A stretch of 23,242 nucleotides of DNA from a virus. The DNA lies in IMG/VR virus record IMGVR_UViG_3300027996_000174, positions 1 through 23,242 of that record; one strand, written 5' to 3'. Shown piece after piece: positions 2,957-7,279 of the stretch; position 1 is the first letter of the stretch, and each line of letters starts with the position of its first letter. The notes under the pieces are model-generated. The model searched no databases and had not been told where the DNA came from. It saw only the letters and a list, made by a program, of their open reading frames with translations. The position numbers and the translations under genes are program-made.

Positions 2957-3172
2957 TCATAACGAGCCTTTTTCCATAAGCCAATTTGCCACTTCTTCAC
3001 ACCCTATCTCTTCTAGTAGGTCTTTGTTTTCTATGTATTGTACTATGTCGCTAGGCTCAAGGTCTGCTATAAAGCTTGACCTTGCATTACCTATTGTTAG
3101 AGTGACCTCTCTATCCATGTAATTTGTATCTATATCAACGTTTTCGCATTCTATTGTTAATTGTTCTATCAT
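2957..3172 (-). CDS. Small acidic hypothetical protein, 71 aa, with structured leader
   Basis: This unknown protein is very acidic, with a predicted beta-strand N-terminal half (MIEQLTIECENVDIDTN, REVTLTIGNARSSFIADL) and a helical C-terminal half that ends VANWLMEKGSL. It is the first gene after a clear promoter and a structured leader. Its strong Shine-Dalgarno AGGAGG (3188-3183) lies ten bases before the ATG and is fully inside one arm of a 10-bp inverted repeat, so translation is probably regulated. An acidic beta/alpha protein placed early after a promoter is compatible with a host-interacting or DNA-mimic role, but no such function is shown. Confidence 0.72.
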   Translation of the reverse strand: MIEQLTIECENVDIDTNYMDREVTLTIGNARSSFIADLEPSDIVQYIENKDLLEEIGCEEVANWLMEKGSL

Positions 3173-3182
3173 TGTGGGGTGT

Positions 3183-3262
3183 CCTCCTACAGACTGTGTA
3201 TCTTTAAAAAACGACTGCTCTTTAGCCTGTAGGAGGTATTAAGAGAAGCAGTCTTTTAAAGA
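3183..3262 (-). promoter_or_regulatory. Structured 5' leader with interleaved inverted repeats
   Basis: Two inverted repeats interlock in the order A-B-A'-B' along the minus-strand transcript. A is 3262-3247 and A' is 3219-3201: GACTGCT pairs with AGCAGTC, extended by TCTTTAAAA with TTTTAAAGA across a 3-base bulge. B (3236-3227, CCTCCTACAG) is a perfect complement of B' (3192-3183, CTGTAGGAGG), which contains the Shine-Dalgarno of the downstream 71-residue gene. The A stem is followed by a T-run, as in an intrinsic terminator. The two pairings could form a pseudoknot or alternate with each other. Both arms are seen directly; the regulatory role is inferred. Confidence 0.7.
3201..3262 (-). terminator. 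Probable bidirectional intrinsic terminator within the leader
   Basis: The stem GACTGCT/AGCAGTC (3247-3253 with 3213-3219) is bordered by an A-run on one side and a T-run on the other, so it reads as a U-tract terminator on either strand. The loop is long (27 bases) and holds the anti-Shine-Dalgarno sequence. The long loop makes it weaker than a standard terminator, which fits an attenuator. Confidence 0.45.
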
Positions 3263-3297
3263 TTCTTGTTAGCTAACCAAGTGATTAGCACTTTGAT

Positions 3298-3328
3298 ATT
3301 ATACCCTATTTTGTGACGTTTGCGTCAA
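3298..3328 (-). promoter_or_regulatory. Promoter with overlapping palindromic operator
   Basis: On the minus strand TTGACG (3328-3323) is followed by a 19-base spacer and a perfect TATAAT (3303-3298). The spacer is two bases longer than the sigma-70 optimum. A palindrome TGACG-N4-CGTCA (3314-3327) overlaps the -35 element and would be a natural repressor site. The promoter lies over the last codons of the 48-residue gene and would drive the structured leader and the genes below it. Confidence 0.6.
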
Positions 3329-6097: not shown

Positions 6098-7279
6098 TTA
6101 AAATTCAAACAAAGAAGTTTTTGCAATTTCTTTCCTTTCAAAACTAGGATTGAGTGGCTCAGTAAATTCAACTCTTTCACTATGTTTCATCATCTGAGTT
6201 ATTAGGTTTTTAGTAGTATTTATATCCATTGCATTGCCGATGAACTCGTATAGTTTTGAGTCGCTGAATCCATCTAGTTTGAACATGTCTTGAAAATCAC
6301 CTTGAACCCTTGCATATTCTCTGGGAGTTAGCTTTTTTATTCTATCTTTTAATAAAACTCCTTGACTGCTAGACGTATCAAGTGTTTGAGAAACTTGCTT
6401 ACCCACTCGACCTCTTCGTGTTGTAGAGCTTGGTCTTGATAAGCTGATACCATCACCATTTTCAGCAACTTCATACCCACTTTTTGTATTTGATTTTATT
6501 AAAACTTTAACGTGCTGATTTCCGCCTGTTGATGCAGTAGTTAGGGCTGGGGACACCCCATTAACTGAATAAATTCTATTTGTGATACTGTTGTGTTTTT
6601 TTGAGTTGATATTTCCTATTTTTCCTATTTGGTTTTTCCCGTCTACATATTCAAAACTTTTTATTGATTTTTCTTTCAAAAAGTACTTTTCTTTCATTTT
6701 TTCTTCTAGCAAGTCTAAAAGTTTACATGTAAGAGAAACTCTTTGAGGAAAAGGCATCTGTGTTGTATATGCTCTAAACCCCACAATAAAAACCCTCTCA
6801 CGATTCTGAGGGGTACCTTGCTCTTTTGCGTTCATAATCCCCCATGAAATCGTGTACCCTTTGAGTGATTTGAAATCTTTAAGAATGCTTTTCCAATCCT
6901 CACCACCATTTGAGCTAAGCAAACCTCTCACATTCTCAACACTGAACATTTTTGGTTGTACTTCATCAATTGATTTGATAGCTTCAAACATCAAGCCGCC
7001 TCGTTCATCTGCTGCACCGCCACGACTTCCAGCCATTGAGTAGCTTTGACATGGTGGTGAAAGGTGGTAGTAGTCGATTTCACCTTTATACTTTTTCCCG
7101 TCCATTTCTCTAATATCTTCATAAAAGTTCGATGTAGGTACTTCGTGATTTTGTAAGTACGATTCTCTTTGTGGCTTTTTCCACTCACAGGCAAAGACTA
7201 CTTCATGATTAATACCCAAATATTTTAAGGCAAATTCAACCGATCCGAATCCACCGCTAAATGCTGTTGCTACTCTCAT
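6098..7279 (-). CDS. C5-cytosine DNA methyltransferase
   Basis: This 393-residue enzyme transfers a methyl group from S-adenosylmethionine to carbon 5 of cytosine in DNA. It shows motif I FSGGFGSVEFAL at 7-18, the catalytic Cys77 in SPPCQSYS, the ENV motif at 115-117, and QNRERVF at 158-164. The variable target recognition region lies at about 170-310, and the C-terminal motif IX/X part has LTPREYARVQGF-like sequence and GNAMDINTTKNLI. Motif I is somewhat altered from the usual FSGIGG. The length is normal and all catalytic residues are intact. It probably protects the phage genome from host restriction. Its ATG overlaps the stop of a 41-residue gene by ATGA. Confidence 0.95.
   Translation of the reverse strand: MRVATAFSGGFGSVEFALKYLGINHEVVFACEWKKPQRESYLQNHEVPTSNFYEDIREMDGKKYKGEIDYYHLSPPCQSYSMAGSRGGAADERGGLMFEAIKSIDEVQPKMFSVENVRGLLSSNGGEDWKSILKDFKSLKGYTISWGIMNAKEQGTPQNRERVFIVGFRAYTTQMPFPQRVSLTCKLLDLLEEKMKEKYFLKEKSIKSFEYVDGKNQIGKIGNINSKKHNSITNRIYSVNGVSPALTTASTGGNQHVKVLIKSNTKSGYEVAENGDGISLSRPSSTTRRGRVGKQVSQTLDTSSSQGVLLKDRIKKLTPREYARVQGDFQDMFKLDGFSDSKLYEFIGNAMDINTTKNLITQMMKHSERVEFTEPLNPSFERKEIAKTSLFEF

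Follow-up and report, generated by a model that had tools for sequence, protein, structure and literature searches.

An undescribed family of folding leader RNAs ahead of early genes in phages of Campylobacterota-type bacteria

Genes and features at the locus

The window (the whole stretch of DNA analysed here) is an entire IMG/VR record of 23,242 bases, which encodes phage structural proteins, methyltransferases and the small subunit of the terminase. The stretch 1137-2357, upstream of the terminase small subunit, encodes a fusion of a ParB-like nuclease domain with a DNA methyltransferase, and a second methyltransferase, of the C5 type, is encoded at 6098-7279. On the minus strand, a small open reading frame is preceded by a leader with interlocking inverted repeats, whose parts are as follows.

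3298..3303, minus strand: candidate promoter -10 box, TATAAT, proposed from sequence and inference, with the RNA start at about 3291
3272..3289, minus strand: P0, a hairpin (GCTAATC/GGTTAGC) located where the transcript is presumed to have its 5' end
3264..3267, minus strand: C, the 5' arm of helix C (AAGA), weak in the window with 4 pairs
3263-3247, minus strand: A, the 5' strand of the long helix A, ATCTTTAAAAGACTGCT, from folding and covariation
3241..3244, minus strand: C', TCTT, the partner of C inside the loop of A
3236-3224, minus strand: B, the anti-Shine-Dalgarno in the loop of A; core CCTCCTACAG at 3236-3227, full arm CCTCCTACAGGCT at 3236-3224
3219-3200, minus strand: A', the 3' strand of helix A, interrupted by a bulge of 3 nt, AGCAGTCGTTTTTTAAAGAT
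3195-3183, minus strand: B', AGTCTGTAGGAGG, the partner of B, including the Shine-Dalgarno (SD) at 3188-3183
3181..3194, minus strand: D, a small hairpin (GTCT/GGAC) enclosing the SD, weak in the window with 4 pairs and having 5-10 pairs in most other members
2957..3172, minus strand: open reading frame of a 71-aa acidic protein translated from the leader, ATG at 3172-3170

The 71-aa protein is without a clear family, with a weak match to PHROG_7311 (E 9e-4) and no homologues among viral contigs or phage records. A preliminary description of the leader had reported two pairings, A and B, interleaved as A-B-A'-B' on the minus strand, with the AGGAGG of the next gene in B' and B in the loop of A. 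The sequence bears out each of these points, and the AGGAGG of the 71-aa frame indeed falls within B'. The observation was nevertheless understated: helices C and D had been missed, and the real element extends from about 3292 to 3170. We found that B and B' can be extended to 13 pairs (CCTCCTACAGGCT/AGTCTGTAGGAGG, 3236-3224 with 3195-3183). A search for the exact B..B' pattern gave a single occurrence in the window and none in 100 dinucleotide-preserving shuffles, and the leader folds with -34.1 kcal/mol (z = -3.2), a value as low as which was reached by 0 of 200 shuffles.

Members of the family and their gene context

The exact B arms were scanned across 2.9 million viral contigs, and one locus (L082) was found, in which the A-B-A'-B' layout is kept; A has another sequence there, and the gene downstream is unrelated. 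The B-arm scan of 84,980 genomes returned L110, in a Sulfurovum MAG, with the same layout, together with unrelated palindromes. A pattern built from the earlier members found L128, and a second B pattern found L143 and the first of two copies in L144 (L144a). Covariance models R1-R3, in which helix A was the sole structure, identified L133, L134, L138, L140, L141, L142, the second L144 copy (L144b), L147, L160 and L161. The family thereby comprises 15 distinct leaders, plus L144a, which is near-identical to L138. Since the B arms served as the search pattern for L082, L110, L143 and L144a, independent evidence for B is restricted to the remaining members. The C and D pairings were not modelled in any search, with the qualification that the pattern that found L128 did contain the C and C' letters.

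Most members reside in unrelated phages or prophages, and every known host is a Campylobacterota genome. The distance from A to the ATG is 21-27 nt in 13 members, and 23 nt in most. The 3-nt bulge on the 3' strand of A also recurs in most members. A P0-like hairpin is predicted at about the same distance 5' of the element in most members, with unrelated sequences; its sequence is identical in L138 and L140, both from one genome. Boxes resembling the -10 element are not enriched across the family (12 seen, 16.6 expected).

Weak model matches (L135-L137, L139, L148, L158, L159, L162) were rejected, having no convincing B, and several of them lie within genes. A search with Rep proteins gave nine related loci and no additional members. 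When relatives of the window were sought through its methyltransferase, the closest was L002 (86% identical), which lacks the leader and carries other genes upstream. Rfam release 15 gave no match above the gathering threshold in the window, and nothing relevant in L082, L110 or L128, nor in the leader at E<=10. This agrees with the earlier remark that the layout is not that of a familiar riboswitch class. We also found no description of such a family or architecture in the open-access literature.

The leader usually neighbours genes for lambda-O-like replication proteins, helix-turn-helix (HTH) proteins or single-stranded DNA-binding proteins (SSB). The first gene encodes a lambda O-type replication initiator in L082 and L133, an HTH protein followed by Rep, DnaC-like or SSB genes in L128 and L134, an HTH protein followed by a methyltransferase in L147, and a helicase-like protein in L142. 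In L144a and L140 it is a small protein ahead of SSB, and in L144b a small protein of an ERF-recombinase operon. The two copies in L144, a 33-kb phage, lie at 1357-1641 and 6949-7230 and head divergent early operons, on the SSB side and the ERF-recombinase side. Repressor-like genes were found near the leader in L082 and L134. The small acidic protein of the window had been proposed as the controlled gene; the leader does head its message, but this target is incidental, as most members lie ahead of genes for replication, HTH or SSB proteins. These results define a previously undescribed family of folding RNAs ahead of early, often DNA-replication, genes in phages of Campylobacterota-type bacteria.

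In L110 (minus strand, 2008-1752), the first open reading frame after the leader stops after six codons (MLIDKN*), and the frame continues as an HTH-like protein. Such a stop could reflect damage to the gene or a mistake in the assembly, or the six codons could be a short leader peptide made on purpose.

Covariation in four helices

Helix A has 17 modelled pairs, of which 16 show double-sided changes, and 94.6% of the cells in the alignment are standard pairs. Its covariation score was 0.884, compared with 0.26 for shuffles and at most 0.19 for slid registers; 0 of 500 shuffles came near this value, which refers to an A alignment fitted to the model. We then compared all four helices in a swap test, re-pairing each arm with the arms of other members (n=15, 100,000 permutations). 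The energies of native and swapped pairs were -19.2 and -7.1 kcal/mol for A, -18.3 and -11.1 kcal/mol for B, -6.1 and -3.3 kcal/mol for C, and -5.8 and -2.1 kcal/mol for D, with 0 of 100,000 permutations reaching the native value in each case. The test carries no correction for shared ancestry; the arms nevertheless differ strongly among members.

The B/B' arms are CCUCCUACAG/CUGUAGGAGG in the window and L082, CUCCCAUAG/CUAUGGGGG in L128, CCUCCUCAG/CUGAGGAGG in L133, CCUCCUAAAG/CUUUAGGAGG in L138, CUCCCAAGAU/GUCUUGGGAG in L141, CCUUUCAAG/CUUGAAAGG in L144b, CCUCCAGAU/AUCUGGAGG in L140 and CUCCUUAAG/CUUAAGGAG in L160. Shuffles of B in single members were not always significant (161/500 in L134, for example), and its strength lies in the whole set. 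In helix C, the arm immediately 5' of A finds its partner C' where A's loop begins; the variants are AAGAGC/GCUCUU, UAGAGC/GCUCUA, AGAAC/GUUCU, AAGUGU/ACACUU, AAAAAAC/GUUUUUU and AGGGC/GCCCU. The D hairpin, with the SD in its loop, varies likewise (AAAUCC/GGAUUU, UUGUAC/GUACAA, UAAUUC/GAAUUA, GAUUAA/UUAAUC). No conserved, aptamer-like unpaired core was seen in the family alignments, where conservation is mainly that of pairing and of the anti-SD.

The preliminary description had staked its idea on covariation in relatives, and the idea survives clearly, as A, B, C and D all show matched changes. We conclude that the element is almost certainly a genuine conserved RNA structure.

Competing folds and a proposed switch

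Helix C-C' encloses the 5' strand of A with a gap of about 0-1 nt: at the base, C joins A without a linker, and on the loop side C' lies right beside it. C-C' and full-length A are therefore mutually exclusive. B' in turn overlaps D. Comparative and computed structures thus give two mutually exclusive folds, one of which hides the SD. The order A-B-A'-B' is that of an H-type pseudoknot, and both of its helices are supported by comparison; the linkers in the members are short for a 17-bp A. It is doubtful whether full A and B could stack coaxially as a simple H-type pseudoknot, since A has about 17 bp and the A'-B' linker only a few nucleotides. A and B would coexist only with the base of A opened, or with B kissing the loop of D. 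The earlier suggestion of a pseudoknot or a switch therefore holds for an interlocked, SD-blocking structure with alternative states, and becomes sterically doubtful for the coaxial form.

The computed energies of A+D and C+B were within 2 kcal/mol of each other in three members: -19.0 and -19.8 kcal/mol in the window, -24.1 and -25.9 kcal/mol in L082, and -15.4 and -17.3 kcal/mol in L141. In the other members A+D was favoured by 3-11 kcal/mol, so that the C+B state may be transient or need help. These nearest-neighbour energies omit kissing between the loops of A and D, which could make A+D the OFF state. In the window, C alone has 4 pairs and +1.0 kcal/mol, and D also has 4 pairs; with C and D this weak, the window member may rely on A and B alone. 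When growing prefixes of the RNA were folded, an early C-C' helix was seen for L110 and L141. The window and L141 went through the C+B fold shortly before the completion of D and finished in A+D. This is compatible with a switch based on folding order and is not proof of one.

We estimate a probability of about 60% that the leader is a cis-acting bistable translational switch for the gene at the head of a phage early operon, working by exchange between C+B and A+D. In one state, C-C' and B-B' would form two hairpins and bury the SD in 8-13 pairs, presumably the OFF form. In the other, A and D would form a long hairpin and a small, weak one that leaves the SD in a loop accessible to the ribosome, presumably the ON or a low form. 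The balance would be struck as the RNA is being transcribed, because C-C' has the chance to pair ahead of the synthesis of A' and B-B' ahead of the completion of D, and a trans factor might also shift it. The placement of the SD favours control of translation, and the leader very probably governs translation of the gene downstream. Action in cis is favoured by the presence of two copies with different B sequences in a single phage (L144) and likewise in a single genome (G450). By hiding or freeing the SD, the competing folds probably serve as an on/off switch for early genes. The outcome would be the timing or gating of replication, recombination and other early phage proteins.

Alternative explanations

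One alternative is a single stable fold, in which the A and D hairpins stand together and B in A's loop kisses the SD loop of D (or forms a pseudoknot with A's base opened). It would be a translational operator, to be opened by the ribosome or by a protein of the phage or its host. It agrees with the SD-bearing D loops, complementary to B in A's loop, and with A+D as the lowest-energy nested fold in most members, and the helix lengths would let D and B-B' lie alongside A. It leaves unexplained the conserved C-C', which is incompatible with full A, and we regard it as rather unlikely. Less probable again, and on the whole unlikely, is an antisense system like the C4 RNA of phages P1 and P7 (RF01695; PMC2864571), which acts in trans and is described as binding around the ant ribosome binding site (PMC12197685). 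Here, the A hairpin would be cut out or terminated and its loop (C'+B) would pair in trans with the SDs of phage messages. As in C4, the loop of a hairpin carries an anti-SD segment and precedes the phage gene that is its target. However, no other complementary or repeated stretch beyond chance, and hence no trans target, was found in the window and five member contigs, several of them partial. The B sequences differ between two copies of one phage, no Rfam match to RF01695 was obtained, and no terminator is conserved.

The latter point also bears on A itself, which had been read as a transcription terminator or attenuator. In the window, GTTTTTT follows the G+C-rich part of A, and A-rich and U-rich flanks are present. 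But a terminator scan found none, the loops of 19-36 nt are atypical, and the U-run of the window lies within helix A, not 3' of the stem. In most members the run is absent or interrupted and located inside the helix, and hardly any member has an uninterrupted run immediately 3' of the stem. The terminator reading does not stand up to these results and is very improbable. The inverted repeats do exist in the DNA and could in principle be protein-binding sites, with no role for RNA. This we practically dismiss: the orientation is fixed, the start codon is 21-27 nt away, the SD is always within B', one-strand bulges recur and G-U pairs occur among the standard pairs.

Comparison with known systems

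SAM-II and preQ1-II are riboswitches that sequester the SD in an H-type pseudoknot. The translational switch proposed here shares their A-B-A'-B' order and an SD in B', and differs in having no conserved aptamer nucleotides outside the pairing, an A too long for the short linker, and the extra helices C and D. The put RNAs of HK022 and the nut sites of lambda act on RNA polymerase. Copies in both divergent early-operon leaders, as in L144, recall these elements; the resemblance is confined to this placement, and B', which always covers the SD, points to translation.

The working principle resembles that of two described leaders. The lambda cIII leader adopts two mutually exclusive mRNA conformations, one of which occludes the ribosome binding site (PMC4166951). 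Both cases concern alternative leader folds of a phage early gene, whereas the RNAs described here have four interlocked helices, family-wide and before replication genes, and a relation in sequence or layout is not expected. The aapA3 toxin mRNA of H. pylori forms metastable, SD-hiding hairpins during transcription (PMC6733600). It shares with the family the bacterial phylum and successive competing anti-SD pairings during transcription. In contrast, aapA3 belongs to a toxin-antitoxin system and has an antisense RNA, and its long-distance anti-SD is located 3', whereas the family described here keeps every part within the 5' leader of a phage early gene. We regard the family as a new one, with a principle like that of these two leaders.

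Regulatory RNAs of Campylobacterota phages are hardly described, and matched changes in four competing helices make an uncommonly strong case that an RNA switch lacking a ligand core has evolved. The leader is positioned where temperate phages take their developmental decision. As a tentative possibility, these leaders might form a class of protein-free and ligand-free folding switches, sometimes two per phage, that gate the early operons for replication, recombination and SSB in temperate phages of Campylobacterota, so that RNA folding besides a CI-type repressor would help to decide between lysis and lysogeny. Constructs of about 120 nt could show how an RNA encodes its folding order, and the model can be used for finding more members.

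Palindromes recovered by the B pattern

Most genome matches of the B pattern were rejected, being short palindromes before an ATG in Oscillospiraceae or a repeat in one Lysobacterales MAG. In many genomes, of Oscillospiraceae and related MAGs (L084-L122; for example L089, 7648-7693), the palindrome CCTCCTACA(A/G)..CTGTAGGAGG lies directly before the ATG, with TTGACA upstream. We take it to resemble an operator of the BlaI/MecI type, of which the SD itself would presumably be part. In the Lysobacterales MAG HKST-UBA257 (L083, L100, two copies in L111, and L114), a dispersed repeat has CCTCCTACAG..CTGTAGGAGG arms and GAATTCATTCCCGAC flanks, and is possibly a palindromic repetitive element.
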